Source: Armatimonadota bacterium
GTDB lineage: Bacteria > Armatimonadota > UBA5829 > JAUSEB01
Length of the DNA: 55,688 nt
Reading direction: 5' to 3'
Assembly (NCBI GenBank): GCA_030649165.1
Contig: JAUSGG010000133.1
Coordinates: 1-55,688, forward strand
Positions 15,930 through 54,765 of the stretch are shown piece by piece; the stretch's first letter is position 1; each line of letters starts with the position of its first letter. The notes under the pieces were generated by a model that worked only from the letters and a program-made list of their open reading frames with translations, ran no database searches and was not told the DNA's origin. A program made the position numbers and the translations under genes.

Positions 15930-16243
15930 ATACTTCAGACCTCCTCGGTGGAATTCGAGCCCGCGCATATTCGAGCCTACGAATTGTTTGACCAGCTTTT
16001 GAGCTGGAGTCCGCAAACTTTAAGTATACGCGCCGATCTGTGAACGCTGCGCCAGACTATCACGCAGGATTCACCATTATGGCGGCTAGGCTAATCGTAG
16101 CTGGGACAGAGCAGGCTGTCAACCGGTAATGTTACCAGGTTTTGTCGAGTGGCTTAAATTATCTTGAATGGCGCTTAAGCTAAGAGGCGCGCAGTCGAAG
16201 TGCGGATGTGGCAGGAACGAATATAGGGTTCGCCCATGGTCGC
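15930..16243. other. Leader and promoter region of the FG-GAP gene
   Basis: No gene is seen. It contains the GAGGAGGT site (15939-15946), a leader of about 158 nt and the promoter module at 16094-16140. A TATACT-like box near 16021-16026 (minus strand) lacks a matching -35. Confidence 0.6.
16094..16140 (-). promoter_or_regulatory. Conserved operator plus promoter, copy 1
   Basis: On the minus strand ACCTGGTAACATTACCGG is followed at once by TTGACA, a 17-bp spacer and TACGAT. GGTAA-CA-TTACC is a perfect palindrome abutting the -35 box, a layout typical of an activator site. Near-identical modules precede the giant exported proteins ending at 36638 and 54549. Confidence 0.7.
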
Positions 16244-16756
16244 TTATCTCAGCGGTTTGCTCATCCTTAAGCTCATGGCGTCGTAGCCGAGTTCTTTGTA
16301 GAGATCGCTGGCGCCTTTGTTGAACGCCCAGACGTTCAACTCGGCGCTCGTCGCGCCGCGATCGAGACCCCAAGCGTGCGCAGCCTTCATCAGAAGACGC
16401 CCAATGCCTCGCCTCCGATACTCGTGACCGACCACCACGCAATCGATGAACGCCAGTGTGCGCGGAACGAACCCGGGACCCTCTTGTGACTTGTCGATCA
16501 TCCGGACGTGCGCAAACCCGGCAATCCCGCGGGCGAGTTCCGCGAGAAGAATCACCTGAGTTTCGTTCCCAACGGCGGCCTCTACGAATTCCCTTGTGCG
16601 AACAGGGCCCTGATATTCCCGAAGGATGTGGGGAAGTTTCCCTCGGTGCAGAGAGTCGATCTCGTCGAACAGCTCGCAAATCCGCTCGTAATCGTCGATG
16701 GTCGCCGCACGGACCCGGCAGTCGGCAGGGAGGTTCTCGGGCTTGGAGCCGCTCAT
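16244..16756 (-). CDS. GNAT family N-acetyltransferase
   Basis: This 170-residue single-domain GNAT protein has a characteristic acetyl-CoA loop in VVVGHEYRRRGIGRLLMKAAHAW (R-R-G-I-G at about residues 115-119) and a C-terminal NKGASDLYKELGY segment. The amine acceptor cannot be predicted. Its ATG overlaps the TGA of the sulfatase gene (ATGA), so it is the second gene of a coupled pair, though a functional link to sulfatase is not obvious. Confidence 0.9.
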   Translation of the reverse strand: MSGSKPENLPADCRVRAATIDDYERICELFDEIDSLHRGKLPHILREYQGPVRTREFVEAAVGNETQVILLAELARGIAGFAHVRMIDKSQEGPGFVPRTLAFIDCVVVGHEYRRRGIGRLLMKAAHAWGLDRGATSAELNVWAFNKGASDLYKELGYDAMSLRMSKPLR

Positions 16757-18123
16757 TTCGTCTCAACAAGCAATTTCTGCAGTCGCGCCTTCAGCGCCGC
16801 GAGGGTCTTCGCATGTGAAGCGTCGTTCACCAGGTTGCGCATCTCCACGGGGTCGTTCTTCAGGTCGTACAGCTCGGGCGTGTTGTCCGAGTCGGGATAC
16901 TCGATGTACTTCCATCTCCGCGTCCGGACGCCGCGGTTGGTCGGGACGGCGAAGCCCCCTTCCCTAAAGTATTCGTACAGGAAATCCGTGCGCCAGCCTG
17001 AGGTCTTGCCCTTCAGCAGTGGTCGGATAGACTTTCCTTGTGTCCCGTTCGGCGGCTGCGCTCCAGCCAGATCCAGAATGGTAGGGCAGATGTCGATGTT
17101 CAGAACCATCTGATCGTTGACGGTCTCCGGGTGGACGAGTTTCGGATATCGTACAAGGAAAGGTATTCGGATCGACTCCTCGTACATAGCGCGCTTGTCC
17201 TTGAGCCCGTGCTCGCCCTGGAAAAAGCCGTTATCACTTGTGAAGATAACAACGGTGTTGTCGAGAACGCCGAGGCTTTCCAGAGTTGACAGAACCCTGC
17301 CGACGCTGTCGTCGATTCCCACGACGGTACGGTTGTAGTTGCGTATGAAATTGTCCAAACGATCTTCTTTTGCCGCGAGAGCCGTCCCCTGAAACTCGCG
17401 AACCCACTTCGGTTTGCCCTCCAGGTTTTCGCGTATGCTGGCCGGGCGGGGTATCTTTACATCTTCGAACAGCTTCGAGTGCCTCAGCGCGGGTTCGAAG
17501 GTAGCGTGAACGGCCTTGTGCGCCAGACACAGGCAGAAAGGCTTGCTCTTGGGCTTCTTAAGCCATTCGACCGCCTGCGCGGTGAGCAGATCGGTCACGT
17601 ATCCGTTGGTCTGAACTCGCTGACCGTTGATGTTCAGAAGAGGGTCCCAGTAAGCTCCCTGCCCCTTGAAGCTGACCCAATGGTCGAAACCCGGACGGGG
17701 ATCGTCAATGTTCCCCATATGCCACTTGCCGACGTAAGCGGTCTCGTAACCGGCCTTCTGCAGGACCTGTGGAAAGGTCTCGGGCAGTTGGCCCTTGAAA
17801 TTGCCGTTGTTGACTACACCGTGCCGGTGCGCGTATTGGCCCGTCAGGAAACAGGCCCGGCTGGGAGAGCAAAGGGAGATGGTCACGAATGCGTTGGTGA
17901 AGCGGACGCCTTCCTTTGCGACGCGGTCCATATTGGGCGTGCGCAGGAACGGATGCCCGGCGCAGCTCATGGCGTCGTAGCGCTGGTCGTCGGTCAGGAT
18001 GAACACGAAGTTCGGCCTGTCCTCCGCGGCTGACGCGCCGCGCAGGTCGACGAACGGGAGGCTGAGGGCGGCGGCCCCCGCTCCTGCGATGAACTGACGT
18101 CTGGATAGTTCTTTGGCGCTCAT
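16753..18123 (-). CDS. Tat-exported type I sulfatase
   Basis: This 456-residue arylsulfatase/choline-sulfatase-type protein hydrolyses sulfate esters, probably of polysaccharides, outside the cytoplasm. The N-terminus is a Tat signal (SRRQFIAGAGAAALSLP, residues 8-24). Metal ligands D45 and D46 lie in LTDDQ. The formylglycine cysteine C85 is in CSPSRACFLTG, which needs an anaerobic or FGE-type activating enzyme not seen in this window. FTSDNGFFQGEHG supplies further metal ligands. ATG at 18123 is chosen because AAGGAG lies just upstream; the longer frame to 18186 has no such site. It follows the GH63-like gene on the same strand after an 83-bp gap with a hairpin. Confidence 0.92.
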   Translation of the reverse strand: MSAKELSRRQFIAGAGAAALSLPFVDLRGASAAEDRPNFVFILTDDQRYDAMSCAGHPFLRTPNMDRVAKEGVRFTNAFVTISLCSPSRACFLTGQYAHRHGVVNNGNFKGQLPETFPQVLQKAGYETAYVGKWHMGNIDDPRPGFDHWVSFKGQGAYWDPLLNINGQRVQTNGYVTDLLTAQAVEWLKKPKSKPFCLCLAHKAVHATFEPALRHSKLFEDVKIPRPASIRENLEGKPKWVREFQGTALAAKEDRLDNFIRNYNRTVVGIDDSVGRVLSTLESLGVLDNTVVIFTSDNGFFQGEHGLKDKRAMYEESIRIPFLVRYPKLVHPETVNDQMVLNIDICPTILDLAGAQPPNGTQGKSIRPLLKGKTSGWRTDFLYEYFREGGFAVPTNRGVRTRRWKYIEYPDSDNTPELYDLKNDPVEMRNLVNDASHAKTLAALKARLQKLLVETK

Positions 18124-18166
18124 AAGTCTCCTTTCCCCGATCGGTCGGGTGAGTCCTTCTACGGCG

Positions 18167-18194
18167 GCTTCGGCTTCAAAGAACAAGCCGAAGC
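18167..18194. terminator. Intercistronic hairpin
   Basis: Perfect 10-bp stem, GCTTCGGCTT with AAGCCGAAGC, and an 8-nt loop, between the GH63-like gene and the sulfatase gene. No U tract follows, so attenuation or RNA processing is as likely as termination. Confidence 0.5.
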
Positions 18195-18206
18195 ATCAAC
18201 TCTCAA

Positions 18207-20138
18207 TCAGTCCCGACTCGATTTACGCGCCAAGTCCATAAACACGGCGCACGTCCAGCCGTAGCCGGGGCATCCGGAAGGATCGCCGCTGCGGGAGCTG
18301 TACAGTTCGTACAGCTCATCGTGCCGCATCATCATGTCGAGCAGCCTGTTGGTGGCCACTTTGCCCTCCTTCTCGAATCCGTACGCTTCGAGCGTCTCGA
18401 CCATAATCCAGGCGATGTTTGGCCATACGGGGCCTCGCCACCAACTGTCGGGTTTGTAGGTCGGATCGTCGTAGGCGACGGTTGGAAATGGATACTTCCC
18501 GAAGAGCCGGTTCGGGTCGAGCAGGTATTGCCGTATCATCCGCCGGGCAACGTCTTTGGGCATCGCCATTCCCGCCCACAGTGGGGTGAAGGAGGCCGGA
18601 GTCAGGATCTTGTGGAACGTCTTCTGATCCACCAGACGGTCGTAGAAGATCTCCTCGTGCGGATCGAGAAGCTCGACGAACATCCTGGCATAATGCCGGT
18701 CTGCGCGCCGTTTCCACGCTTCGGCTTCTTCCTGCTTCCCGAGGAGCTTCGCCATCTTCGCGAGTATGCGCATATCTCGATTGAGATACGCGTTAAGGTC
18801 GACCCCTTCGATTCTCCCCTTGTCGAACCTGGGGCTGTCGTCCCAGCATTCGAACCCGCCCATATACTCGCAAACTCCGTTGCCGTCCTGGTCGCGGTTC
18901 TTGAACCACCACTCCACCATCCGCCCGAGCGGTCCGTACACCGCGGAAACGAGCTTCTTATTGCCGAACTGCTCGTAGAGCCGCCAGGCGGCCCATCCGA
19001 CGAGTGGCGACTGGGTCTCGCCGGGCCGGTTCCAGGTGGCGCAGACGAACTGCGGCATCTTGCCGTCAGCTTCCTGGTTTTCGTAGATATTGAGAAGATA
19101 ACCCTCCGCGAGCTTTTGGTTGAACAGCGCGGCCCCGACGCTTGTGAAGCAGGCGTCCCACAGGAATTGGGCGGCGTAGACACCCCGGCCGGGATAACAG
19201 GCCGCGTGTTTCAGTCTGCCCCTCGGCGCCTTCGTGTTGCTCAGTATCTGGTAGGCGGACTTGGCGTAATGCAGTCGCATATTTGTCGGAACACCGTCGA
19301 AGGTGAACTTATCCAGGGCCTTGGCGAGCCAGCGTTTCGAAGCGGCGCGCGAGTCTCTGGACCCGATGCCTGCCAGGCGGAGTGTTCGAGACTTGATCCC
19401 CGCGGCGGTCTCTCCCTCGCCGATTCCCACGATAAACGTCTGTTCCGCGGCGAGAGCATCGGCCCTGGCCGTCCAAGAGACCTGAACCGCCTCGTCTGTT
19501 TCGGCCGTCAGTCCGCCGCTCAGACTGAACGCCTCCGGCACGATCACGCAGATCGCTAAGGGATGGTCCGGGTCCGGGTCGCGCCCGTCGACCCTGGGAA
19601 AGCGGGTTTCCAGGGTAAGGAGCCTGGTATTCGGATCGTATGCGACGCGCCGCTTGAGCTTAGGCTCCGTCGCGGGGATCGACATCGTTGCCTTTACGCC
19701 CGAAGCGCCCGCCGCCGGGTCGGCCTTCAAATGGTAGCAGACGATGTCCAAATCGGCGAAGGCGATGACGCCCGAGAAGCCGTGCTCGCCTTGCTCCTGA
19801 ATCTCCAGCGCGAAATCGGACCTGGTCTTTGTCTTGCCCGAGACGTCGCTCCCGCGGCCGACTTCGAAGGTTAGGAACTGAGAGGAAAGCAGCGGCGAGG
19901 CTCTGCTGTAGTAGAGCCATAGGTCCTCGATGCCGAGCTTCTCTCGCTTGGAAACGCCGAACCATGAGTAGTGCGGGCAGAAGGCGAGATGCGAGGACTC
20001 GAAACGCAACTTGCCCTTCAGGGTGTCGATGAAGCTCCGGGTCATTTTATTGCTCCTTGGCGGGCCGGCGGCCGACAGCGTTGCCGATAGAAACAGCAAC
20101 AGCAGAACAGCTCCCAGCCTGGTACGCGGCAGATTCAT
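18207..20138 (-). CDS. Exported (alpha/alpha)6-barrel glycoside hydrolase, GH63-like
   Basis: This 643-residue protein has a Sec signal peptide (LGAVLLLLFLSATLSAAG), an N-terminal beta-sandwich and a C-terminal alpha/alpha-toroid. Motifs match GH63 and mannosylglycerate-hydrolase-like enzymes such as YgjK: FLWDACFTS, WNRPGETQSPLVGWAAWRLYE, GFECWDDSPRFD (general-acid region), WWRGPVWPNIAWI, and ELYSSRSGDP...GYGWT (general-base region). It probably removes alpha-linked glucose or mannose from extracellular glycans. ATG at 20138 starts the signal peptide; the upstream in-frame codons overlap the promoter. It shares a divergent promoter region with the Wzz-like gene. Confidence 0.82.
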   Translation of the reverse strand: MNLPRTRLGAVLLLLFLSATLSAAGPPRSNKMTRSFIDTLKGKLRFESSHLAFCPHYSWFGVSKREKLGIEDLWLYYSRASPLLSSQFLTFEVGRGSDVSGKTKTRSDFALEIQEQGEHGFSGVIAFADLDIVCYHLKADPAAGASGVKATMSIPATEPKLKRRVAYDPNTRLLTLETRFPRVDGRDPDPDHPLAICVIVPEAFSLSGGLTAETDEAVQVSWTARADALAAEQTFIVGIGEGETAAGIKSRTLRLAGIGSRDSRAASKRWLAKALDKFTFDGVPTNMRLHYAKSAYQILSNTKAPRGRLKHAACYPGRGVYAAQFLWDACFTSVGAALFNQKLAEGYLLNIYENQEADGKMPQFVCATWNRPGETQSPLVGWAAWRLYEQFGNKKLVSAVYGPLGRMVEWWFKNRDQDGNGVCEYMGGFECWDDSPRFDKGRIEGVDLNAYLNRDMRILAKMAKLLGKQEEAEAWKRRADRHYARMFVELLDPHEEIFYDRLVDQKTFHKILTPASFTPLWAGMAMPKDVARRMIRQYLLDPNRLFGKYPFPTVAYDDPTYKPDSWWRGPVWPNIAWIMVETLEAYGFEKEGKVATNRLLDMMMRHDELYELYSSRSGDPSGCPGYGWTCAVFMDLARKSSRD

Positions 20139-20169
20139 GTGTGTTATCCTATCCAGAGCCGATGAGCTT

Positions 20170-20199
20170 ATTATACGACTGCCCTGGGGCATGGCTCAA
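20170..20199 (-). promoter_or_regulatory. Promoter of the GH63-like gene
   Basis: On the minus strand TTGAGC (20194-20199) and TATAAT (20170-20175) are 18 bp apart, about 30 bp before the ATG. Confidence 0.65.
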
Positions 20200-20208
20200 G
20201 TGCGGAAC

Positions 20209-20238
20209 TTGGCGATCAACCTCGTCGTATGATAAGAT
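20209..20238 (+). promoter_or_regulatory. Promoter of the Wzz-like gene
   Basis: TTGGCG (20209-20214), an 18-bp spacer and TAAGAT (20233-20238), with an extended -10 TG at 20230-20231. It lies about 42 bp before the ATG. Confidence 0.6.
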
Positions 20239-20280
20239 ACACCGGCGACGGCGGAAATCGCGAAGGCAGTGGGAATAGAC

Positions 20281-21528
20281 ATGGCAAAACGTTGGGGAAT
20301 TCGGGTTAGTTTGTTTCTTGCGGTAGCGTTGGCGGCTTCGGCGGTGTTCTACATTTGCGTCAATTCGGCCGGGCGCGGGTTCTACACCGGACGGATTAAC
20401 ATGGTTCGACGCTTGCCGGCGGATCAGGCGTGGCAGCGCGACCCCGCGGGGAGTATTAGTAATGTGGGCGTCATAGTCACCAGCGAAAGGGTCCTGCAGT
20501 CCGCCGCCAGAACCATGTCGCTTCTGAATATTTCGAAGCAACCGGAAGAACTGCTTTCGACCATCAAAGTCAAGCCATCAAGACCGGGCGTGATCGGGAT
20601 CGAGCTAACCTCGCGCGACCCCGAACAGGCAAAGGAAGCAATCGACACCGTCGCGGCAGAGGCGCAGACGGTATATTCGGAGACGATGAACCGTCAGCTC
20701 TCGCCATCGGAACGGAAGAATGGGTTCAGGCTTCAGGCCATAGAGCAAGGCCATGTCTTCCCGATCCGCAACGACGCGCCGGCAAAGACCGCGCTTTTCG
20801 CGCCTATCTTCGCGGGCGCCCTCCTCGTTCTGTTCTTGGGAGTCGGCGCGGGCCGCTCCGCCAAGCAATCCAGGGAACCGCAAGACCGTCAACCCACCAG
20901 ATGGGCCAGGATTGTGATTCCCTCGTGCCTCGCGCTTTTTGTGATATCGGCCGCGGTCTACGTCTATAGCTCGCTCAGCGCGCCGAACCTGTATTGCGGG
21001 CGCGCCAAGTTGATCCAGCTTCCGTCGGAAGAAGAAGCGCGCCGGCCCGATGCAATTAAGCGCCTCGATCGTTTTGCCGGCGCTGCGCTGAGCAAGGCGG
21101 CACGGCCTGCCGCAAGAACGCTCAAGCTTTTCAACATATCCATGTCTCCCGACGCCGTGCTGCGCATGACGAAGGTCGAACGGGTCCCCGACAGCACTGT
21201 CCTGAAAGTCGAGGTTGTGTCATCCGATTCCGAGGCGGCGGAGGTGGTCGCGGACGTGGTAGCGTCGCAGGTTCAACAGGTTTACCGCGGGGTCGTGGAA
21301 GCTCCCGCCGCCGGACACGGGGACGGGAGCATATCGGAGCTTTACACAGTCGAGCCGGCGCACACATATCCGACTCGGGCGGCAGGCTACGACATAGCCA
21401 GGCGGATCTCCGGATACGTTACCGCGTGCATGCTTGTGTTTCTGCTGGGAGTGGGAGTTGGGCGCGTCGTGGGTAGACGGACCTGCGACACTGATTCTCT
21501 CGCGAACCTCCCCCTAACCCCCTCCTAG
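20281..21528 (+). CDS. Tandemly duplicated Wzz-like membrane protein
   Basis: This 415-residue protein contains two copies of one unit, each of about 200 residues. Each unit has a membrane helix, a periplasmic Wzz-like alpha/beta domain (segments SRPGVIGIELTSRDPEQAKE and DSTVLKVEVVSSDSEAAEV correspond) and a second helix ending in LFLGVGAGR or VFLLGVGVGR. Before the second helix of each copy comes the xAxTYP/HVFPxR motif of polysaccharide co-polymerases. No kinase domain and no other capsule genes are adjacent. GTG at 20269 is an alternative start. The last codons (NLPLTPS) and the stop are read from a C-rich dispersed repeat. Confidence 0.75.
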   Translation: MAKRWGIRVSLFLAVALAASAVFYICVNSAGRGFYTGRINMVRRLPADQAWQRDPAGSISNVGVIVTSERVLQSAARTMSLLNISKQPEELLSTIKVKPSRPGVIGIELTSRDPEQAKEAIDTVAAEAQTVYSETMNRQLSPSERKNGFRLQAIEQGHVFPIRNDAPAKTALFAPIFAGALLVLFLGVGAGRSAKQSREPQDRQPTRWARIVIPSCLALFVISAAVYVYSSLSAPNLYCGRAKLIQLPSEEEARRPDAIKRLDRFAGAALSKAARPAARTLKLFNISMSPDAVLRMTKVERVPDSTVLKVEVVSSDSEAAEVVADVVASQVQQVYRGVVEAPAAGHGDGSISELYTVEPAHTYPTRAAGYDIARRISGYVTACMLVFLLGVGVGRVVGRRTCDTDSLANLPLTPS

Positions 21529-21543
21529 CTAGAAGGAGGGGGA
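21507..21543. repeat. C-rich palindromic repeat joining two gene ends
   Basis: CCTCCCCCTAACCCCCTCC, a short loop, then GGAGGGGG. It encodes the end of the Wzz-like protein and lies directly downstream of the convergent phosphofructokinase gene, so it may terminate both transcripts. Confidence 0.65.
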
Positions 21544-21545
21544 AT

Positions 21546-23201: not shown

Positions 23202-23248
23202 CGTAATGGCTTCCTCTTCCTTTGGTATCGTGTGGAGCAAACTCTTTG

Positions 23249-23277
23249 ATTATAGTAATTCCGGCGGGATTTGACAA
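23249..23277 (-). promoter_or_regulatory. Strong promoter of pfp
   Basis: On the minus strand TTGTCA (23272-23277), a 17-bp spacer and a consensus TATAAT (23249-23254). The 5' leader is about 41 nt. Confidence 0.75.
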
Positions 23278-23449
23278 AGCGGGTAGCGGGTCGGCGGTCA
23301 GTCTGGTTCAGGGAAGAACGCGGATAAACACGGATGAGATTAGACAAGGGACCAGGAGGAGTCGAGCGCATCTCAAGTGGACAGGAAGCAAACTACGAAA
23401 GACCTTCTAACTAAGTGCAGCATTTCCTAAATATCGTCGCATATTCCGG

Positions 23450-23523
23450 AACCTCCCCCTAACCCCCTCCTTAGAGGAGGGGGGAATACTCCCTCTCCTT
23501 CTAGGAGAGGGTTGTGGTGAGGT
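23450..23523. repeat. C-rich palindromic dispersed repeat (double)
   Basis: CCTCCCCCTAACCCCCTCC, TAGA, GGAGGGGGG, followed by CCCTCTCCTTCTAGGAGAGGG. Confidence 0.65.
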
Positions 23524-23756: not shown

Positions 23757-23813
23757 TGAGGTAGGCCCGCGGGCGGTCGGAGTCGCTGCGCGGGCTTTGC
23801 GTTTGAATCGGAA

Positions 23814-26103: not shown

Positions 26104-26124
26104 ACCGCGCCATTGTCGATGCGG

Positions 26125-32126: not shown

Positions 32127-35100
32127 CTAGAACACCTGTATATCACTTTGCCGTCGCACCAGAATAACCCGGCAGAGGCCGCTGCCCGTGTTGTAGAGGG
32201 AACTGATGCCCGTGACGACGGCGTACGAGCCGACCGCCGGCGGCGTCACGCCGGACGGTACTCTCACCAACACGCCGCTGCGCTTGTCCGGATTTGCCGC
32301 GAACGCCGTCTCGGACCCGTCGTTCATGTAAAAACTGCCGGCGTCTTTCCAGGTGACCTCGCCCCAGGCGGTGACGAGCAGTCCGATATTATTAAGACCC
32401 GCCATGTCAACCAACGCTCGCTCGAACTCGCCTTCTCCTACCTCGGTCCATTGATATGCCTTTGCCGCCTTCTGACCGGTCATATCGATCGGGTCGAAAA
32501 GGAAACCGTCCCCGCCTATTGCGGCGCCGGCCAGCCCGACGGGAGCCGCGCCGCCGGTTCCCTTCAGGACCACGGTGTCGGCCTCAATGCGCCGCTCATC
32601 CGCCGCTCCGGCGAGTTTGCCGGCAAGGTCTACCCGATCGTCCAGAGTCATGGGCCTGGCAGCCACGACGCGAATCCCCATTCCGTTCTGGTCCTGAACG
32701 TAGGCGCAGTCCGGGAGGGCCGCGGTGACTTTCTTACCGTAAAGGGCAACGGGAGCGTTGTCCGTAAGAGTCTTGGCCTCGGCGATCTTATCCCGCGCCG
32801 GAGCCACCGTAATGCCGTCGCTCGATCCGGTGTAGGTATTCGAGCCGACCGTTCCTCTGACCGTAACATAATACGCGCTTCCTTCGGTGAGGCTGAGCCC
32901 GGTCCTTGTGACCTCGAGCGAAAGGCCGACGCCTGTGAACGGAACAATATCCTGCAGACCGGCGGCCGTCCCTATGGCGTACTCGTAGAGGCTTGCCGTG
33001 GGGGCGACGGGGCTCCATTTTGCGTGAATGCTGTCGCTTGTGGTGTAAGCTCCGTCATCGACCACCGTCGGCGTGACGGGGGTCGAGCCGTTCCAGTAGT
33101 AGAACGGGCCGAAATCCGCGGTCCCGTTAGGAACGCCGTCGGAGTTGAAGCCGCGCGCGTGCACGTAGTAACCGGACCCGTAATGCGGACAGGTGTTCAT
33201 CAGAACGTTGGGTCCGGGAGTTGGCGCATAGGCTCCGTTAGTGTTCCAGGCCATCCACTGGAACGCCCACGCGCCGATCGCGTTGCTGGCCGTATGGCCG
33301 AAGAACGGCCCGACCCACGGGGTCGCGGCGCCGGCCGGCCCCTGTGTAATATTCGTCACGACAACGCCATCGCGGTAGAGCTCGTACTTGGCGCTCGCGT
33401 TGCTGCCGGGAGTCGCATTCCTGAGCGTCAACGTGTAAGTGTGGTACGTGTACCCGTTATCGATCGACTGCTCAGCGCCGCTCATGCTGGGGCCGACTAT
33501 CCGCAGGTAGTCGGGACGGACGATGACCCCCGTCTCAGAACAATCCGCAAGGCTATACCCGAAGTTCGTGCTTGAACTGTACCATCCGTACGGACTCGGC
33601 ACGGCGCGCATTCTGACCATGAGGGTGGCGCCGGTGTCCCTGTTTATCGTAAGGTTCGGCCACAAACCGAGTTTAGCTTTGGTGTTCCAGACGCGCCCCT
33701 GGTCCATCAATACCCACGATGGGATGCCGTTCTCGTTGACTAGTTCTTCCGACATCAATCGCTGAGTAGTGGAACCATCGTAGAGCAGCCAGCCGGTATC
33801 CTCGTCGGTCGGTGAAGACGTGGCGCTCCAGACCGTCCAGCCCGCGCTTGTCGGCGGTGTGATGCCGGGCCAGCCGGCCTCGGTTCCGGTCCACTTATGC
33901 GTGGGCGATTCGTCGAACGCGTACTGGTAGTAAGCCACTTTGCCGGCCCCGAAACCTCCCACGGGCAGCAGCCGGATGTAGTTCAAGGTCTGCCATACGC
34001 CGGGCTGTGGGAGGAGAGTCAACGTGGATGTGGACGGGGGCGCTGAAAGGGTGGCCGCGTAGCCGGCCCTGCAGGCGGCGGAGGTGTTCCCCGCGTCGTC
34101 ATAGGCCGTCACGGCGTAGGAATACTGCGTATTTGGGGAGAGTCCGCTGTCCGCCAAACTGGTCCCGGTAGGCCAGCCGACCGCCGTCGTCCCTCTGCAC
34201 ACCTGGTATCTGGTCGCGCCGGGAACCGTGTCCCATCTCACATAGCTCTGGGTAGTGGAAGCAATGGAGACGGCGAGGTTTTGCGGCTGCGCGAGCATAC
34301 CGGCGGGCGGACCGTAAGAGAGCCTTACGGCGCTGATATAGACGACGTTGGAGGCGCTTCCCACGTAGAGCCGGAAATCGGCCAATTGCGAACCGATGCG
34401 ATGGCCGAAGTTGACCTTATCGAGTTTCCAGGTCGCCGTACGCCACGTCGATCCGCCACTCAGATAGACGGGCAGCAGCGGCTCTTCGTATCCATCCGTG
34501 CCGTCGTAGTACGGCGTGATCGAGCCGGAGGAGCCGTAGTAGTCCACCTGCAGGTAGATTGTCTGGGGTGATCTGTCGTACGCGTATCCGTCGTCGGTCT
34601 TGAAATAGAAGTTGACGTCGCCGGAGCTTGCCGTCGTGCGGCACGATCGTCCGCCCGCCGATGTCGCGGTCGTATCGCCGTCGCCCCCCTGCGGGTGCGT
34701 GATCCCGTCCGAAGTCAGGCTCGCGTCCATCGTGATGTATGCGTTGTCCAGGCCGCGAACGGTGTAAGTCTTGGACGTTGCGGAGCTCAACAGGTTTGTG
34801 GCGGAGAATCTGATCTTATTCCGCGCCGCTTGAAGCGAGCCGAACGGGACCGAGTTGGCGGTGACGTGGTACGCGTCCGTGGCCGCGCCGTCCGCCGTCA
34901 CCGTGAGATCAGTGTGGTTGGTCCAGGTGGCTCCCCCGTTGGTCGAATATTCGACCTGGAAAAGCGCCGGGTTCAGTCCGGCCGTCGCATCGACGATCAT
35001 CGCCGAACACGTCGGGCTCGTCTGGCTGCTGTAGGCAGGGCTGAAATCGCCGTACAGCGTAGACGGCACAGTCAGGCCCAGCTTGCCGGCGGCGTTCATA

Positions 35101-36638
35101 AGGCGCGTGTGGAGAATATCGTAATTCGTATAGCCGGCCTGGAAATTGCTTGCGGCCTGCAAGATCGCTTTCGCGCAGTCCAGATCGAACAGCGACCTCA
35201 GGGTGAGGTCTTTGGCTGCTATCGTGGAGAACGGATAGCGGGTCGGCAATTGGTAGCAGGAGTTGGTTATGTCGAAAGTTCTCTTCAAAGCCGACGCCAC
35301 CCGGGGACCCGCCACGCCTCCGAACCAGTGGTTGGACCAGTATCTGTAAATATCGTCGGAGCTGCAATCCGGGTAGTCGGCAAGGATGTCGAGCGCGCAC
35401 ATGTTGATCCTGTTCGCGCACTCGATGACGCGCGGGTTGATGCCCGGCGCCCCGCCCTGGTCTTCCCGGTCGATCCTGGCCACCACGCCGTCAGCCCCGC
35501 GAGGGACTGAGAAGTCCGTCCAGAGATGTCTCAGGTAATCGATTCCAGCCCACGGTGTATAAGTGTAGCCCCAGTACTCACCGACAAAATCGAACTCGAC
35601 CAGTTCCGGATGTCCCGTACACGTGCCGATTATGTCGTAGTCTTCCTGGATGACGTTCCAGTCTCCGGCTCCCGTGGCTTTGCTCATCATCCAGACGCCG
35701 GGGTCGTTGCGCGCGACGGCGTTGCGGACCCAGCGGTCCTCGCCCGCGGCGTCCGTCCAGTTGCGAATGTACAGAGTCTTGTTGTGTCTCTCGCAGACGT
35801 TCCACAGGGTCTCAATGGCCTGTGTAAGCGTGTCTTCGGGGGTCTTGCCGGTGTGGGTAGTGGCCAACCGATCGTAGAAATCGGCCCCGTTGAAGTTCTC
35901 GCTGAACGTAAAGACAAGGCCGTCGGCGTTCGGGCAGACCTGGAAAAGCTGTTCGTACTGGCCGTCCATCCAGGGCCAGAAACCGGGATCGTCGAGGTTG
36001 ACTTTTCCGCCGACCAAGTACTGCGCGGGCATGTTTGTGTACTGTATGTCGTGCACCCACAATACGACCTCGCTGACGCCGTTCGCGTGGGCGGCGTCGA
36101 TGAGCTGGTTGACCTTGTTGCGTATCGTCAGGTCGTTGATCGGCTCCCAGGCGTACATCATTATGTCGTGGGAAAGCTGCACGTGGTTGACGTGATACTC
36201 ACGGGCATGGGTGAGCAATTCGAGGTGGTACGGCACGTCGTCGCGGATCATGACCCAACCCTTCTTGATGGCGGGCCCAACCACGTTGATGGTGAACCGG
36301 CGCCCGGACGCGCTCCAGGATCCCCAACCGTCGGCGTTGCGCAGCCGGACAAAAACGTAATAGGAGCCATTTGCAAGGGCTCCCACGTCGCAGGAGTCAT
36401 CGGCGCTGCTTACCGTGCCCGAGTCCCACGCGCTCGCGCCGGTCGGCGAGTTAGTAGTGTTGATGTGGACCTCATAAGCATCGTGCGGGTCGCCGACCCA
36501 GCGCATGACCGGGCTTGTGAGAGAGACGATGGCGTCGCCGCGGGGCGTGATGACCTCAGGAGGGTTTGGTGGAACGGCACATGTGACGATTGCGGAGGAG
36601 AGTAAGAGGGCAAGGCACACCGGAACAAGATAACGCAT
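32127..36638 (-). CDS. Giant exported multidomain protein, TIM-barrel-like
   Basis: This 1503-residue protein has a Sec signal (LVPVCLALLLSSAIVTCAV). Inferred domain order: fibronectin-III-like domain (25-110); a large alpha/beta domain that looks like a glycosidase TIM barrel (about 115-560; VLWVHDIQYTN, FTFSENFNGADF, EFDFVGEYWG with possible acidic catalytic residues); beta-sandwiches including a carbohydrate-binding-like domain (about 690-780); more fibronectin-like domains; and the OB-fold-like C-terminal module (about 1290-1503; GLLVTAWGEVTWK, GSFYMNDGSE). It is probably a secreted or surface glycan-active protein; I cannot assign a GH family. AAGGAG lies about 10 nt before the ATG. Confidence 0.8.
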   Translation of the reverse strand: MRYLVPVCLALLLSSAIVTCAVPPNPPEVITPRGDAIVSLTSPVMRWVGDPHDAYEVHINTTNSPTGASAWDSGTVSSADDSCDVGALANGSYYVFVRLRNADGWGSWSASGRRFTINVVGPAIKKGWVMIRDDVPYHLELLTHAREYHVNHVQLSHDIMMYAWEPINDLTIRNKVNQLIDAAHANGVSEVVLWVHDIQYTNMPAQYLVGGKVNLDDPGFWPWMDGQYEQLFQVCPNADGLVFTFSENFNGADFYDRLATTHTGKTPEDTLTQAIETLWNVCERHNKTLYIRNWTDAAGEDRWVRNAVARNDPGVWMMSKATGAGDWNVIQEDYDIIGTCTGHPELVEFDFVGEYWGYTYTPWAGIDYLRHLWTDFSVPRGADGVVARIDREDQGGAPGINPRVIECANRINMCALDILADYPDCSSDDIYRYWSNHWFGGVAGPRVASALKRTFDITNSCYQLPTRYPFSTIAAKDLTLRSLFDLDCAKAILQAASNFQAGYTNYDILHTRLMNAAGKLGLTVPSTLYGDFSPAYSSQTSPTCSAMIVDATAGLNPALFQVEYSTNGGATWTNHTDLTVTADGAATDAYHVTANSVPFGSLQAARNKIRFSATNLLSSATSKTYTVRGLDNAYITMDASLTSDGITHPQGGDGDTTATSAGGRSCRTTASSGDVNFYFKTDDGYAYDRSPQTIYLQVDYYGSSGSITPYYDGTDGYEEPLLPVYLSGGSTWRTATWKLDKVNFGHRIGSQLADFRLYVGSASNVVYISAVRLSYGPPAGMLAQPQNLAVSIASTTQSYVRWDTVPGATRYQVCRGTTAVGWPTGTSLADSGLSPNTQYSYAVTAYDDAGNTSAACRAGYAATLSAPPSTSTLTLLPQPGVWQTLNYIRLLPVGGFGAGKVAYYQYAFDESPTHKWTGTEAGWPGITPPTSAGWTVWSATSSPTDEDTGWLLYDGSTTQRLMSEELVNENGIPSWVLMDQGRVWNTKAKLGLWPNLTINRDTGATLMVRMRAVPSPYGWYSSSTNFGYSLADCSETGVIVRPDYLRIVGPSMSGAEQSIDNGYTYHTYTLTLRNATPGSNASAKYELYRDGVVVTNITQGPAGAATPWVGPFFGHTASNAIGAWAFQWMAWNTNGAYAPTPGPNVLMNTCPHYGSGYYVHARGFNSDGVPNGTADFGPFYYWNGSTPVTPTVVDDGAYTTSDSIHAKWSPVAPTASLYEYAIGTAAGLQDIVPFTGVGLSLEVTRTGLSLTEGSAYYVTVRGTVGSNTYTGSSDGITVAPARDKIAEAKTLTDNAPVALYGKKVTAALPDCAYVQDQNGMGIRVVAARPMTLDDRVDLAGKLAGAADERRIEADTVVLKGTGGAAPVGLAGAAIGGDGFLFDPIDMTGQKAAKAYQWTEVGEGEFERALVDMAGLNNIGLLVTAWGEVTWKDAGSFYMNDGSETAFAANPDKRSGVLVRVPSGVTPPAVGSYAVVTGISSLYNTGSGLCRVILVRRQSDIQVF

Positions 36639-36728: not shown

Positions 36729-36776
36729 AACATACCCGTACCGCCGCTGACTGTCAAGCTGTAATAATTACCAGGT
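36729..36776 (-). promoter_or_regulatory. Conserved operator plus promoter, copy 2
   Basis: On the minus strand ACCTGGTAATTATTACAGC runs into TTGACA, a 17-bp spacer and TATGTT. The leader to the ATG at 36638 is about 84 nt. Confidence 0.75.
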
Positions 36777-47988: not shown

Positions 47989-48006
47989 TCCCTCAGGTGA
48001 GGCGCG

Positions 48007-48108
48007 CCTGGAGGGATAACGGACGACCGCTTTAGGGCGAACACGAGGTTCGCCCCTACGGTTGGACTGCGTTTCCCTATCCCTCCAGGTATCATACCTG
48101 GAGGGATA
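48007..48108. terminator. Repeated palindromes between convergent genes
   Basis: A perfect 31-nt palindrome with 15-bp arms (TATCCCTCCAGGTAT and its complement around one C, 48078-48108) follows a third copy of CCTGGAGGGATAAC (48007-48020) and a hairpin AGGGCGAAC/GTTCGCCCC (48034-48056). It lies between the DUF6785-like and PD40 genes and probably blocks read-through in both directions. Confidence 0.6.
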
Positions 48109-48131
48109 ACGGGCGAACACGGAGGCCGGTG

Positions 48132-49679: not shown

Positions 49680-49689
49680 TGTTCTCCAC

Positions 49690-50436
49690 CTACATCTGGG
49701 ACAGAATCAAGGCAGCCTGATTGACGCTCACCTCTGTTTTGAGCGGCGGGCGTTCGATCTCCGATGCGCCTGTCTCGGGGCGTATCGGGATAACCTCATT
49801 CCGCAGCGGGATCTCGGCAACGGGCCTATCCCCGCCGGCAGCGACTACGATCCGGCTTGCGTTTGCTTCTATATGCAGTTCAACACGGAAATCCACGTCG
49901 GGGACAGCGGCAGTTTGCGGCCGCGTTCTTCGCGGCGGTCTCACGTGGCGCAGATGAGCCATCCGTTTTGGAGAAGCCGGACGGCGATGCTTTACTACAC
50001 GGTCGGGCGCTTGCGGCGCGACAGTATCCGGTCGCTTCAGCGCCGGACGGTGAACTGTTCTTAACGGCGTTCGATTACGAACAACCCGCTCGATAGCTTG
50101 CTTTTTCGCCGCGGGCGGCGCTATGCCTGATCTGCTCAGAACGAGCAGCAGCAGGCAAGCAGCGACTGCTGCTCCCGCGGCGAAAAACCAGACGAACCTG
50201 CGCGCCGGTCTTGGTTCAGGCAATATCCGCGACATAACCTGCCCGGTGATATCAGGCCCAACCTCCGGCTGCGCGAGGCTTCCCTCGATGCAGGACACCA
50301 TCCCCCGGAGCTTCGCAATCCTTGCCGCGCACAGGGTACACTCCCGCAGATGCGCCTCCAGTTCCGATCGCTTCGGCTCGTCGAGATCGCCGCTGTCGAG
50401 AATCAGCAAATCCTCAAACCTTACGTCACAATTCAA
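49690..50436 (-). CDS. Anti-sigma factor, zinc-finger type, membrane anchored
   Basis: This 248-residue protein starts with a zinc-binding anti-sigma domain, H29-x3-C33-x2-C36 (HLRECTLC), in the cytoplasm. One membrane helix (about 82-103, FVWFFAAGAAVAACLLLLVL) and a basic, proline-rich outer region follow. It should hold the adjacent ECF sigma factor inactive until an envelope signal arrives. Its start overlaps the sigma gene by 11 bases, ensuring equal expression. Confidence 0.88.
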   Translation of the reverse strand: MNCDVRFEDLLILDSGDLDEPKRSELEAHLRECTLCAARIAKLRGMVSCIEGSLAQPEVGPDITGQVMSRILPEPRPARRFVWFFAAGAAVAACLLLLVLSRSGIAPPAAKKQAIERVVRNRTPLRTVHRPALKRPDTVAPQAPDRVVKHRRPASPKRMAHLRHVRPPRRTRPQTAAVPDVDFRVELHIEANASRIVVAAGGDRPVAEIPLRNEVIPIRPETGASEIERPPLKTEVSVNQAALILSQM

Positions 50437-50971
50437 CTTCGATCACCGCCAATCGTTCCGCCAGCATCTTAAGGGCGCGATGGAGCTTCACGCGAACGGC
50501 TCCCGGTGAAACTTCCAAAGCTTCGGCTATCTCGGATGTTGAGTAACCTTCCTGGTACCTCAGAACCACCACGCTGCGGTATTCCGGCGGAAGGCCCGAT
50601 ATCGCCGTCCTGACATCCTCGGCCCCGCGGCGCTTCAGGGCTTCACTCTCCGCGGAGTCCACGAAAGGCTGCGCGGAATCCAGCAGAGTGTCGATGTCCT
50701 CGGTAGGGACCCGGTGGGACATTCTCCTGATGCAGCAGTTGACGACGGTTACTCTGAACCACGGCCAGAAATGACCGGCCTCGGAGAAGCCGTCCAAGCT
50801 CCGGAACGCGTTGACGAAGGCGTCCTGAGCCGCATCTTCGGCATCGTCCCAGTTTCCGAGCATACGATAGGCCAGAGTCAACGCCGAACGCTGGTGGCGG
50901 GCCACCAGTTCCCGGAACTCATCGCTTTTGCCCTTTTTCACCCGCCGGATTATCTCGACATCCGATAGCAA
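50426..50971 (-). CDS. ECF-type RNA polymerase sigma factor
   Basis: This 181-residue sigma-70 family protein has only regions 2 and 4. Region 2 (LAYRMLGNWDDAEDAAQDAF, residues 33-52) melts the -10 element; region 4 is a helix-turn-helix (YSTSEIAEALEVSPGAVRVK). It is RpoE/SigW-like and heads a unit with its anti-sigma factor and a PD40 protein, a common arrangement for envelope stress control. TTG is the start. GAGGG lies about 9 nt upstream. The promoter was not identified with confidence; TATAGT near 51011 (minus) has no clear partner. Confidence 0.92.
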   Translation of the reverse strand: MLSDVEIIRRVKKGKSDEFRELVARHQRSALTLAYRMLGNWDDAEDAAQDAFVNAFRSLDGFSEAGHFWPWFRVTVVNCCIRRMSHRVPTEDIDTLLDSAQPFVDSAESEALKRRGAEDVRTAISGLPPEYRSVVVLRYQEGYSTSEIAEALEVSPGAVRVKLHRALKMLAERLAVIEVEL

Positions 50972-51096
50972 GCCCCCACACCCTCGCAGGTCAATCGTTG
51001 CCTTTCACTATAACAGTACTCAGTCGATCGCGGGAATGTTACAGGGATTGGGAGTCGAGAGTCGAGGCAGTCGGAGGACGCCGAGGGCGGGCAACT

Positions 51097-51135
51097 CCCT
51101 CTCCCTGGAAGGGAGATGGTTGGGGTGAGGGTGGA
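51097..51135. repeat. C-rich palindromic dispersed repeat
   Basis: CTCCCTCTCCCTGGAAGGGAG followed by TGGTTGGGGTGAGGG, upstream of the sigma factor gene. Confidence 0.6.
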
Positions 51136-51205
51136 GCTTATCGGTAAAAGCAAGCCGGTCGTCCCGGACAGCACGTTCCGTCCGATCAAGTCCGGCTGAT
51201 GCGCC

Positions 51206-51234
51206 GAGGGCCGGGCGAAAATCGCCCGGCCCTC
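51206..51234 (-). terminator. Terminator hairpin of the 1093-residue protein gene
   Basis: Perfect 13-bp stem, GAGGGCCGGGCGA with TCGCCCGGCCCTC, loop AAA, 34 bp after the stop. Its GGGCCGGG core resembles the hairpin at 26125-26150. Confidence 0.7.
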
Positions 51235-51267
51235 GTGTATGCAGCTTCCAAGCGCTCTTGCTTTCGG

Positions 51268-54200
51268 TCAGTTCAGCGGCATCAGGTCCGCCTGGCTTCG
51301 CACCCGGATCAACGGATACAGTTCGCCATTGTCGACGTAGCTCGTGCAGACCCCGACGACCGCGGCGCTGTGGTCCTGCGCGGGGATACTCAGTCCGGGA
51401 GCGAATACCTTAACGCCGGCTTGTCCGGAGTCGCTGATCGCGCCGGAGCCGTCGTCGAGCCAGAAGGAATCTCCGCTCGTGTTTACAACTCTGCCGGTCG
51501 TTAAGACGGGCAGCCCTACTGTGTTCAAGCCAAGTCCGCTGTATACGCCCTTTTGGCCCGCGCCGGTCAAAGCGTTGTAGAACCAGTCGGTCCCGCCGAC
51601 CGACCTGTTCGTCATCACGGCGGGGACCTCCCATCTGTAACCGATAGTGGTTACCGTGGCTTGCGCGAGACACCGCTCGTCGTTCACGGTCTGCATGCTG
51701 CCTCCGACATCCACCGTCGCGCCGGCCGTAAGCCCGGGCGGTATGCCAAGCGGGCTGACTTTCACGCCGCAGCGCTTGTTTCCGTCGAGGATATAAAAGC
51801 CGTCCGTCAATACCGCGGTGACGGATTTGTCCGTCAAGCCGACTGACGACGTGTCCGCCAGCAGCTTCGCGGCGGCGACCGACAGCCCTGCCTGCGCAAC
51901 AACCGTTATCCCGTCGGAGAAGCCGATGGGACTCGGCATCATCGTGCCGTTCATCGCGACGACGATCACATAGTAAGCCTGCCCCACGTTCAGCGCGAGA
52001 CCGGTGCGCGTGTCTTCGGTCGACAACCCGACGTCAAGCCACTCGCCGCCGGGGATGATCCCGCCCGGACCCGGGTCCATGCTTATTGCGTAACGGTATC
52101 CGCTTATCCCCGTTTCGGGATCGTTCGAGAGCCATTGCGCGTGTATCTGGTCGGTGGTGAGAGTAAACGCGCCGTCATCGGTGACAACGGGCATTTCTGG
52201 TGGCGTCGGATCGTTGCCGAAGTAGTTCTGGTCGAGCTGGTCTGCGCCGACCGGAGGATAGTTCATCATCGGCGGGTCGAACACAAGACCGGGTTTGATG
52301 GGATTGACCGAGCCGGTCCACCCGCAGGGGACTGACCCGGAGTACGTCCCGTCGGGGCCGGTGGCCGGATTACCCGGAAGACCCATCATGATGACTCCCT
52401 CCAACGGAATCAGCATCGGCGTTGTGACACGGCCGGATATGATAAACTGCTGCGGCGCGCCCGTATAATCCTGGTTGATTTGGTTGGACGTGACATTGAT
52501 GTACATCCGCTGCGGAGGCGTGAACGTGTAGCAGGGCATCATGGGGATCACGATACCGGCCCATCCGCACGGCGCCATCGCCGTGTAAAAGCCCGTCGGG
52601 TCAGTCGGCGCCGCGCCCGGCAAACCGTTCATCATCACACCGGGGATAGGAGCGCCGTCCGCGGTCCGCGCGTAACCGGAGATTGTGAACATTTGCGGCT
52701 GGCCCACGTAATCCTGGTTCATCTGGCTGGCAGCCAGGTTGAAGTACGTTCTGGAGGGCGGCGTGAACGTCGTACACGGCCAAGCCGGCGTTACCGTGCC
52801 GGACCAACCAAGCGGAACCTGAACGTTGTAGAAGCCCGCCGGGTCTGTGGGCGGATTGCCAGGCAGGCCGTTCATGGGAACACCCGGCATCGGATTGCCG
52901 CCGCCGTCCCGGACGAAGCCCGAGACGTAAATGGCTCCTCCGGTCCCCTGCACCATGCCCCACCAGGTCCCCCACCTGTCCACGCCTCCGGACGGCGTGG
53001 CCGCGTACTCCTGGATCGTCCACAGGTCAGTATCGTTGTTCGGGTCCACGCAGGTCGCGGAGAAATCACCCCAGCGGTTCTTTGTGCCACTGAAGGTCTT
53101 GTAGTAAGTCGCTTCGCCGGCCTTCAGCACGGTGTCGGCCTGCAGTGTGTTCGCCGCGTCGCCTCCCGCCCGGTAGGAGTAATTCGCGCTGGCGTACTGC
53201 GAGGATGAGAACCTGGAATAGCCGATCAGAGCGTCGTTATACTGGTTGACGGCGATGCTTGGGAACGCGTAGAACGTTGCGCCGCTGGCGTCATCGACCA
53301 GGCCGTTTTGCTGGACCGTGCCGCTCGTGCTGACCTGCCACCACATGACTGAACTGCGCGTGGGAGTGGTTGCGGGGAAGAAGACACTATGCGCGCACCA
53401 CAGGTAGCCGTTGCGGTAGACGCAGTTCTGCATACGGTCATCGTTCGCCATGATCTTGTTGCTGGCGCCGGACTGCGGGGCGAAATCGTTGTTCACGCCG
53501 CCATTCCAGGTGGTCGCGACGGCTGGATACGCCAGGCCGGTCGTAAGCGTTTCGGAGCCGACCGCGCCGGTGATCTTGCTCAGGCGAAGATAGCCGTACC
53601 CACCGGAGTTGCTGTTCCACGTCTCCATAAGATATTCGGTGGCGATTGTGTTGTCGTGGGTAATGGCCGGGGCCTGGCAAGCGCCTCCGGAGGTGTCCTG
53701 GAGAAGCGTGTATGCGCCGGAGCCGTTGGCGTAGAGATTCGCCTTGTCGAAAACGTATATATTGGAGCGGGTGAAGGCGTCGTCGCTCACCGCGAACATG
53801 TTGACCTGCACGACGATCCAGTCTTTGTTGAACCCGATACTCGGATAGTCGGCCCACAATGTGTTCGTCGAGTCGGCGTCCACCCGGTAAAGATACCACG
53901 TGCCGGTGGGATCGCTATTGGCGCTCACGCCGATCAGGACCGATGAGTTGTTGTGTCGCGGCTCGGCGCACGCCGTGAATATCCACCGACCTCCGTAGGG
54001 ATCGTACAAGACCTTCGGATCGAAAGCGCCGGCGCCGGTGTAGAATGGTCCCATACTCGACCAGAAGCTCTGAAGCGACACCGTGCTGAGGTTCGTGCCG
54101 CCGCGGTTCTGAATGCGCACCTCTGTGTTCAGCGTGACCATCAGGTGGTTCGGCCCCGCGGCGCCGTGGGTGTCCGGCGGGATACGGGTGTTGTTGTCAC

Positions 54201-54549
54201 CGAGCGCGGCGAAGCTGGCTGCCGGCGCCGGAGAAAACGGCGGCGGCGCGCCCTCGGGCTCCGGCGTCAGAGCCGACGGCTCGTAAGAAGCTTGGGCCTC
54301 AGCCGGGACCGGAAGGTCGCCCGGAACCGGCAGCGGAGAATGGACCGCGGCCGGCGCAACCGGACGCGGAGCAGCGGCCTCTTGCGCCGCCAGACGCCTC
54401 ATATTGACGGAAGCATGCTTGCTTGCCTTATGCCGCGAGCCGCGAACCGAAGCCGGGTCCGGCCCGACCGGGTTGGCCATCGCGGTGGCGCAAATGGACA
54501 GAGCAAAAAGTGTGAGAATTATTCTCCGCTGAAACCGGGACTGTTTCAA
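51268..54549 (-). CDS. Giant exported protein, propeller-like plus OB-like module
   Basis: This 1093-residue protein has a signal peptide (RRIILTLFALSICATAMA), a proline-rich linker (to about 110), and a beta-propeller-like domain of about 400 residues (NTRIPPDTHGAAGPNHLMVT, FDPKVLYDPYGGRWIF, then repeated YSRFSSS- and WGDFS-type blades). Three copies of an 80-residue carboxypeptidase-regulatory-like repeat follow (ISGYARTADGAPIPGVMMNG, FTPPxRxY). A fibronectin-like domain and the OB-fold-like C-terminal module (MTNRSVGGTDWFYN, TGAGQKG) complete it. TTG at 54549 is chosen: GGGAGG lies 8 nt upstream, and the frame's earlier start overlaps the promoter. It is probably surface-bound or secreted. 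Confidence 0.82.
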   Translation of the reverse strand: MKQSRFQRRIILTLFALSICATAMANPVGPDPASVRGSRHKASKHASVNMRRLAAQEAAAPRPVAPAAVHSPLPVPGDLPVPAEAQASYEPSALTPEPEGAPPPFSPAPAASFAALGDNNTRIPPDTHGAAGPNHLMVTLNTEVRIQNRGGTNLSTVSLQSFWSSMGPFYTGAGAFDPKVLYDPYGGRWIFTACAEPRHNNSSVLIGVSANSDPTGTWYLYRVDADSTNTLWADYPSIGFNKDWIVVQVNMFAVSDDAFTRSNIYVFDKANLYANGSGAYTLLQDTSGGACQAPAITHDNTIATEYLMETWNSNSGGYGYLRLSKITGAVGSETLTTGLAYPAVATTWNGGVNNDFAPQSGASNKIMANDDRMQNCVYRNGYLWCAHSVFFPATTPTRSSVMWWQVSTSGTVQQNGLVDDASGATFYAFPSIAVNQYNDALIGYSRFSSSQYASANYSYRAGGDAANTLQADTVLKAGEATYYKTFSGTKNRWGDFSATCVDPNNDTDLWTIQEYAATPSGGVDRWGTWWGMVQGTGGAIYVSGFVRDGGGNPMPGVPMNGLPGNPPTDPAGFYNVQVPLGWSGTVTPAWPCTTFTPPSRTYFNLAASQMNQDYVGQPQMFTISGYARTADGAPIPGVMMNGLPGAAPTDPTGFYTAMAPCGWAGIVIPMMPCYTFTPPQRMYINVTSNQINQDYTGAPQQFIISGRVTTPMLIPLEGVIMMGLPGNPATGPDGTYSGSVPCGWTGSVNPIKPGLVFDPPMMNYPPVGADQLDQNYFGNDPTPPEMPVVTDDGAFTLTTDQIHAQWLSNDPETGISGYRYAISMDPGPGGIIPGGEWLDVGLSTEDTRTGLALNVGQAYYVIVVAMNGTMMPSPIGFSDGITVVAQAGLSVAAAKLLADTSSVGLTDKSVTAVLTDGFYILDGNKRCGVKVSPLGIPPGLTAGATVDVGGSMQTVNDERCLAQATVTTIGYRWEVPAVMTNRSVGGTDWFYNALTGAGQKGVYSGLGLNTVGLPVLTTGRVVNTSGDSFWLDDGSGAISDSGQAGVKVFAPGLSIPAQDHSAAVVGVCTSYVDNGELYPLIRVRSQADLMPLN

Positions 54550-54717
54550 TACCTTCGCCTCCCTCGATATTCGGAACAACGCCTCAAGCGGATGCTTTGT
54601 GAAAAGCCGCGCTATTGCGGCGCGGAGAATGACCTTCCGTTGCTCTTGGAGTTTAGGAAAACTATTGGTGTTTGCGGCGACGACAGAGGATAAACCGGCA
54701 AGTCGCGCACTAACTGG

Positions 54718-54765
54718 AGTATAGGACGGGGCCGGGCAGGCTGTCAATCAGTATTATTACCAGGT
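54718..54765 (-). promoter_or_regulatory. Conserved operator plus promoter, copy 3
   Basis: On the minus strand ACCTGGTAATAATACTGA runs into TTGACA, an 18-bp spacer and TATACT. Confidence 0.75.

Follow-up and report, generated by a model that had tools for sequence, protein, structure and literature searches.

We analysed a stretch of 55,688 nucleotides from an Armatimonadota bacterium (contig JAUSGG010000133.1 of assembly GCA_030649165.1), called the window below, and a palindromic operator that stands directly against the -35 box of three promoters in it, each preceding the gene of a giant exported protein. The same operator recurs before surface and export genes in the rest of this genome and across its class, at quantised distances from the -35 box. 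From these sequence patterns, a regulon with activator-type promoter geometry is very likely. It is also probable, if less firmly, that the operator belongs to an activator of a surface and export regulon in this one Armatimonadota class, with small LuxR/GerE-type proteins as the likely activators.

A sequence-only reading had described a shared palindrome, -35 and -10 arrangement at three places on the minus strand of the window, and direct reading of the letters bears it out. All three sites have ACCTGGTAA, then 9-10 bases, TTGACA, a 17-18 bp spacer and a -10 element (Table 1). The sequence ACCTGGTAA occurs four times in the window against 0.10 expected, and none of 100 shuffles reaches four; the fourth copy (9428, plus strand) lies inside a long reading frame, without such a promoter behind it. 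The palindrome spans 20 bp and reads AAACTGGTA-N4-TACCAGTT or close to it, the letters TT being common to the palindrome and the -35 box.

The operator is enriched well beyond the window. In the bacterium's own genome, a 5.48-Mb draft that is 99% complete, the pattern CTGGTAANNNTACCAGTTGACA with at most three mismatches gives 26 matches and the reversed-pattern controls give none; a first, looser pattern had given 21 matches, nine of them well formed, against 12 controls. An extra base keeps window site 2 and its paralogue on contig 101 out of the 26. Across the 28 genomes of the class, 95 places in 21 genomes match with at most three mismatches, against nine controls. The matches are not scattered randomly with respect to genes in the own genome or in the class. 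At a limit of two mismatches, 39 places (four controls) are found in 18 of the 251 genomes of a phylum sample, of which 13 belong to the 28 of the class and 5 to the 223 others; beyond the class the motif is near chance, with three of the control matches falling there. One of the sites outside the class (L101, genome G037) precedes a PEP-CTERM gene, and another (L098, G154) perhaps does. A strict-pattern scan of named genomes returned four contigs, about what chance would give by our own estimate: two from Flavobacterium, one from Mesorhizobium and one from Armatimonadetes. The site on the last is identical to that of G005, a relative in the same order, and precedes a PEP-CTERM gene.

The distance between palindrome and -35 box points to activation. 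In the 41 sites with at most two mismatches, TA stands out at the -10 position (0.64 and 0.71 bits) and the 5' flank is A-rich; the search pattern included neither the -10 nor the upstream flank. To remove the bias of a TTGACA-containing pattern, the bare palindrome CTGGTA-N4-TACCAG was searched without the -35 box, giving 15 places against one control in the own genome and 68 against 14 in the class. Many of the palindromes in the own genome and its relatives sit further upstream of the -35 box than those of the window, mostly with a T-rich run directly below the palindrome. When the 68 palindromes are read in both orientations (136 in all, with a background of 0.10 exact TTGACA per offset at offsets 80-139), exact TTGACA boxes appear 14 times at offset 31-32 (0.2 expected, p 2e-21), five times at 16-17 and five times at 42-43 (0.2 expected each), and seven times at 52-55 (0.4 expected). 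The best-fit period of the 33 exact boxes at offsets 25-75 is 11.0 bp, with a broad optimum from 10 to 12. If TTGACA is taken as -35 to -30, the palindrome centres would lie near -43.5, -59.5, -70 and -80. At the first of these positions, to which the three window sites belong, the operator overlaps or abuts the -35 box at a fixed distance, as in class II activation; the others lie upstream at helical steps, as in class I. Spacings that suggest a class I/class II layout thus occur far more often than chance. Because the palindrome-to--35 distance is quantised, as an activator needs, we infer activation. The earlier idea of an activator operator is therefore supported by spacing and gene association, while activation itself is our interpretation of them; and of the palindrome fixed against the -35 box, the abutting copies are real, but a larger set 15-40 bp further upstream also exists. 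Several sites (L268 with two, L130, L177, L294, L299, L194, L092 and L290) have a separate element, acGCTCA or close to it, some 30-33 bases downstream of where the palindrome starts; most of them precede PEP-CTERM genes, and some have TTGACA only at 52-55. The element is perhaps the site of a second factor.

The genes behind the operator point to the cell surface. A set of 66 palindromes, which counts one twice (L198 = L287) and lacks three of the 68, was compared with 600 random places: a PEP-CTERM gene lies within 450 bp of 27 palindromes and of 10 random places, and 24 more palindromes have a signal-peptide-like open reading frame (ORF) behind them, judged by a crude rule that is positive at 82 of the 600 random places. 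PEP-CTERM tails recur behind sites across the class. The own genome has two exosortases, and 11 of the 38 PEP-CTERM-like frames recovered from its loci have an upstream palindrome with at most two mismatches, where shuffling predicts 0.67; the operator therefore perhaps serves about a third of its PEP-CTERM genes. The 26 own matches include six before PEP-CTERM genes, six before giant proteins with the shared C-terminal module described below, and seven before other exported proteins, among which we recognise by eye two multihaem cytochromes and one beta-helix protein. The regulon for large exported proteins that the sequence-only reading had envisaged is thus supported as a regulon and in its link to export, but its commonest recognisable targets are PEP-CTERM proteins rather than giants.

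Other genes recur behind the operator. Multihaem c-type cytochromes, seen by eye from their CxxCH repeats, follow it in two genomes (L084 at 13944 and 17876; L115 in G005). A small S1-domain-like protein of 151-160 residues (by eye), without a signal peptide, follows it at L105 (G027), L106 (G026) and L149 (G020); its presence in an export regulon would be unusual. In two genomes (L107 in G022, L145 in G020) the operator precedes a conserved protein of some 130 residues. Exact palindromes without a phased TTGACA precede prepilin-like genes (GFTLIEIMIV or GFTLVEIMIV) at L178 (G015) and L279 (G003).

In the lux box, a dyad of 20 bp, ten bases separate CTG from CAG. The CTG-N10-CAG dyad against the -35 box resembles it, so a LuxR-type helix-turn-helix (HTH) was searched for. 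The own genome has seven GerE matches, assigned by eye to one sigma factor, two response regulators, one HicB-like fusion and three stand-alone proteins of 84-86 residues. With the GerE model (PF00196), L028, L031 and L033 score 75.9, 71.4 and 60.1 bits against a curated cut-off of 23.5. The distribution of GerE domains follows that of the operator. No GerE is found among the matches listed for G006, G008, G013 and G016, and weak ones only for G024, which was scored zero, its top match (7.0e-6) being partial and sigma-factor-like (compare L034); the counts were taken by eye from the matches listed and used only as zero or non-zero. On that footing, the five genomes without a true GerE domain hold one of the 95 sites and one of the 68 palindromes, and at least two sites or palindromes occur in 20 of the 23 GerE-bearing genomes against none of the five GerE-less ones (Fisher p 0.0006). 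In addition, the palindrome stands near small GerE genes themselves. In G020 an exact palindrome lies between two divergent small GerE genes. In G026 and G027 an exact palindrome lies 338-340 bp above an 81-residue GerE gene, followed by TTGACA at offset 31 and, after another 17 bp, by TAAAAT, and in G023 a palindrome with one mismatch precedes a small GerE gene. By our own rough estimate, chance would place about 0.04 of 68 palindromes that close to a GerE gene. From this evidence we consider a LuxR/GerE-type protein the probable regulator.

The 42 small GerE proteins (75-96 residues, with starts set by our own rule) fall by eye into at least four groups. When response regulators are counted too, 84 HTH sequences can be compared: 50 have exactly SKRTVDFHL as the recognition helix, and in 22, those of group B (L028, L308, L310 and others) among them, the helix is directly preceded by a cysteine (CSKRTV). 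A redox input like that of PedR, compared with these proteins below, is conceivable for group B. The HicB-like antitoxin domain (by eye) of L030 (G000 contig 110) is apparently fused to a LuxR-type HTH, and the small GerE gene of L033 / L143 (G000 contig 15) lies directly behind a sigma-70-like gene (by eye). A quorum-sensing LuxR was considered and rejected: the own genome has four matches to the autoinducer-binding domain (Autoind_bind, PF03472), the best at 13.7 bits and none over the cut-off of 23.

The same activator regulon might be in the charge of another family, such as GntR, Fur/Zur, TetR or MarR, the small GerE genes being mere members; we consider this unlikely. GntR-type and Fur/Zur-type operators have parts of the sequence in common with it, and our profiling covered GerE and CRP domains only. 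In Anabaena, the PEP-CTERM protein ZepA is under the control of Zur, and Zur-like palindromes of 15-16 bp precede zepA genes in other phyla, so that there too a palindrome stands before PEP-CTERM genes in several phyla (PMC10957091). However, that system concerns one protein family and zinc, and its motifs overlap the promoter or lie below it, as a repressor's would, whereas the present sites lie above the -35 box at helical steps. GerE is singled out by the exact palindromes that precede small GerE genes in three genomes and by the near-absence of sites from the five genomes without GerE among the matches listed. A Fur-like 7-1-7 arrangement, with one base more between the arms, has no exact case against 69 with N4, in DNA that was gathered by N4 patterns.

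Control of the regulon by a CRP/FNR-family protein is less probable still. The 5-4-5 palindrome has the spacing of an FNR site. Clear CRP-type domains are present in the own genome, matches at E 0.001 occur in 26 of the 28 class genomes (20 over the cut-off), and four of the five operator-less genomes also lack a clear CRP domain. CRP of E. coli acts at -41.5 and, with a periodicity of about 10.5 bp, at -61.5 and beyond (PMC6301791), and our operator likewise lies against the -35 box or upstream at helical steps; its half-site differs, being neither TGTGA nor TTGAT. We disfavour CRP as the regulator because clear domains (E 4e-10 or better) are absent from five palindrome-bearing genomes, G011, G026, G027, G004 and G015, whose drafts are 97-99% complete. 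Phased operators stand before PEP-CTERM or GerE genes in three of them (G011, G026 and G027); palindromes precede PEP-CTERM genes in G004, and G015 contains three palindromes. G013 in turn has a CRP match and no operator.

We think it quite improbable that the palindrome is a repressor operator, bound to exclude polymerase. Repressors use palindromes too, and the abutting sites have a consensus -35 beside the palindrome (though TTGAC was in the search pattern), but 26 of the 31 phased exact TTGACA boxes lie 31-55 bases below the palindrome start, at helical steps, where polymerase would stay unblocked; a repressor would have no need of such a layout. There is next to no likelihood that we are dealing with intrinsic terminators or a mobile repeat: many palindromes do read AAAACTGGTAATATTACCAGTTTTT, a hairpin with a T-run, but their stem is rich in A+T, a T-run is missing from the abutting copies, and neither the fixed -35 distances nor the PEP-CTERM enrichment would be explained.

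Several observations weigh against an export regulon driven by LuxR/GerE-type activators. The operator is found on only 11 of the 38 own PEP-CTERM frames, and behind 7 of the 26 own matches the DNA examined shows no clear exported gene. Some exact TTGACA boxes stand at offsets other than the phased ones, with three at 65 and one each at 37, 51, 68, 75 and 76; the phased windows were named after the counts were seen, and the close relatives G026 and G027 were counted separately. The absence of GerE amounts to about two independent losses, since G006, G008 and G016 form one genus and G013 belongs to the same family, while G024 belongs to another. The profile set GerE and CRP against operator counts, and a clear CRP domain is likewise missing from four of the five GerE-less genomes. 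G002 has GerE proteins and no sites, with two palindromes against four controls. The GerE-flanked palindrome of G020 has no TTGACA at a phased offset, and only three of 49 scanned GerE proteins have a palindrome within two mismatches (L227 exact, L238 with one, L214 with two). No recognisable operator was seen upstream of the three small GerE genes of the own genome, for which we therefore rejected autoregulation, and the reading frames listed for its two exosortase loci include no regulator that we noticed by eye.

We propose the following mechanism for the LuxR/GerE-type reading. A dimer would bind AAACTGGTA-N4-TACCAGTT. At the three window sites, which have the class II layout, its centre would be near -43, right beside the -35 box, where it would contact the body of RNA polymerase. 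With the class I layouts it would be placed near -60, -70 or -80 on one helix face, in most cases with a T-rich run after it, and would hold the C-terminal domain of the alpha subunit. The activators would be small LuxR/GerE-type proteins, some 85 residues long, that contain a single HTH with the recognition helix SKRTVDFHL or close to it and lack a sensor domain. Their regulon would comprise PEP-CTERM proteins, giant proteins with the shared module, beta-helix proteins and multihaem cytochromes, together with small GerE genes in three genomes. Since the proteins have no sensor domain, the input may simply be the amount of activator. A more specific version is put forward tentatively, at somewhat less than even chances: several groups of LuxR-type activators, each some 85 residues long and free of a sensor domain, might work in parallel across the class, using an identical recognition helix and one shared operator. 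Together they would set the output of exosortase-sorted and giant surface proteins from one class II and three class I positions, with amount or pairing as the input instead of a ligand or phosphate.

The three giant proteins of the window share a C-terminal module, as the sequence-only reading had noticed. Pairwise BLAST of their last 170 residues gives 1.4e-11, 6.6e-13 and 1.2e-7, and the stretch in common is 60-165 residues long. The module has no convincing Pfam match (best E 0.045), and its top match in the PDB is an RPA14 subunit (E 0.016); the earlier label 'OB' is compatible with that match, which does not prove it. The listed ORF of the third gene opens at 54747; because this falls within the promoter, the start lies further down, at 54579 or later. 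A weaker half copy of the operator had also been reported before the beta-helix gene (5582-5620). One arm (ATTACCAG) and TTGACG are present there, but the second arm is absent and the -10 is poor (CATCAT). A paralogue of this gene (L026, contig C181; 54% over 167 C-terminal residues) has a full operator upstream, so the half operator may be a decayed copy.

Table 1. Operator sites, promoter elements and target genes in the window.
Feature	Position	Strand	Basis or remark
Site 1: 9 bases, TTGACA, 17 bp, TACGAT	16140-16094	-	direct reading
Operator palindrome, site 1, CTGGTAACATTACCGG	16123..16138	-	direct reading and genome pattern search
-35 TTGACA, site 1	16117..16122	-	direct reading
-10 TACGAT, site 1, 17 bp spacer	16094..16099	-	direct reading
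Site 2: 10 bases, TTGACA, 17 bp, TATGTT	36776-36729	-	direct reading
Operator, site 2, CTGGTAATTATTACAGC, one base longer than the other two	36758..36774	-	
-35 TTGACA, site 2	36752..36757	-	direct reading
-10 TATGTT, site 2, 17 bp spacer	36729..36734	-	direct reading
Site 3: 9 bases, TTGACA, 18 bp, TATACT	54765-54718	-	direct reading
Operator palindrome, site 3, CTGGTAATAATACTGA	54748..54763	-	direct reading and genome pattern search
-35 TTGACA, site 3	54742..54747	-	direct reading
-10 TATACT, site 3, 18 bp spacer	54718..54723	-	direct reading
Degenerate half operator (ATTACCAG, C, TTGACG) before beta-helix gene	5603..5617	-	doubtful on its own
Target gene 1, 1259 residues, FG-GAP repeats, shared C-terminal module	12237..16016	-	signal-peptide-like N-terminus (by eye)
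Target gene 2, 1503 residues, fn3 domain, shared C-terminal module	32127..36638	-	signal-peptide-like N-terminus (by eye)
Target gene 3, about 1100 residues, shared C-terminal module	51268..54579	-	
Beta-helix protein, 837 residues	3060..5573	-	paralogue L026 with full operator
Shared C-terminal modules of the giant proteins	12240-12749, 32130-32639, 51271-51780		

The promoters of the lux, tra and cep systems resemble the present ones in the CTG-N10-CAG dyad of 20 bp and the LuxR-type HTH. The known boxes have dyad symmetry and generally overlap the -35 box (PMC1766932), as the abutting sites do here; by contrast, no autoinducer-binding domain exceeds its cut-off in the own genome, and many of our sites take class I positions. 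The published CepR box looks similar; it is the product of a motif finder and was not used as support. The own protein of 84 residues matches GerE (PDB 1fse, 74 residues) and PedR (NF052366, 74 positions) over about 60 residues; these act in other organisms on other targets, and it scores 57 bits against the PedR cut-off of 120. EpsA (TIGR03020), the XrtB/PEP-CTERM-associated transcriptional regulator, is among the top three NCBIfam matches of each of the three own proteins, but only the last 60-70 of its 247 positions, the HTH, are matched, at 48-53 bits against a cut-off of 170, short of a full-length match. EmbR/BmfR are described as LuxR-type biofilm response regulators with receiver domains (PMC3684757).

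The closest precedent for shared control of PEP-CTERM genes is PrsK/PrsR with sigma-54 (Haft et al. 2006, PMC1569441; Xia et al. 2023, PMC9850573), which resembles the present case in placing one cis-element before many PEP-CTERM genes and in naming the regulator by phylogenetic profile. That system uses a -24/-12 promoter of Proteobacteria with an NtrC-type regulator, whereas here a -35/-10 promoter is combined with a phased palindrome. The -24 GG / -12 GC promoter of sigma-54 is absent from our sites, which have TTGACA-N17-TA...T instead; PrsK/PrsR genes were not searched for. Haft et al. (PMC1569441) report the sigma-54 motif, among their PEP-CTERM species, as common to Proteobacteria only, and state that more regulators and DNA motifs are still to be discovered, inside and outside Proteobacteria. 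The operator looks like one of these further control elements. We found no such operator described in the excerpts of open-licence literature on PEP-CTERM/exosortase regulation, on its LuxR link or on Armatimonadota.

If true, these results would reveal a new way of switching on the widespread PEP-CTERM surface proteins, which are numerous in many environmental bacteria. They would offer a defined operator, a promoter geometry and a small candidate activator, as well as a case in which one operator occurs naturally at a range of positions, class I and class II. In this Armatimonadota class, a single programme would join PEP-CTERM proteins, giant exported proteins and multihaem cytochromes.

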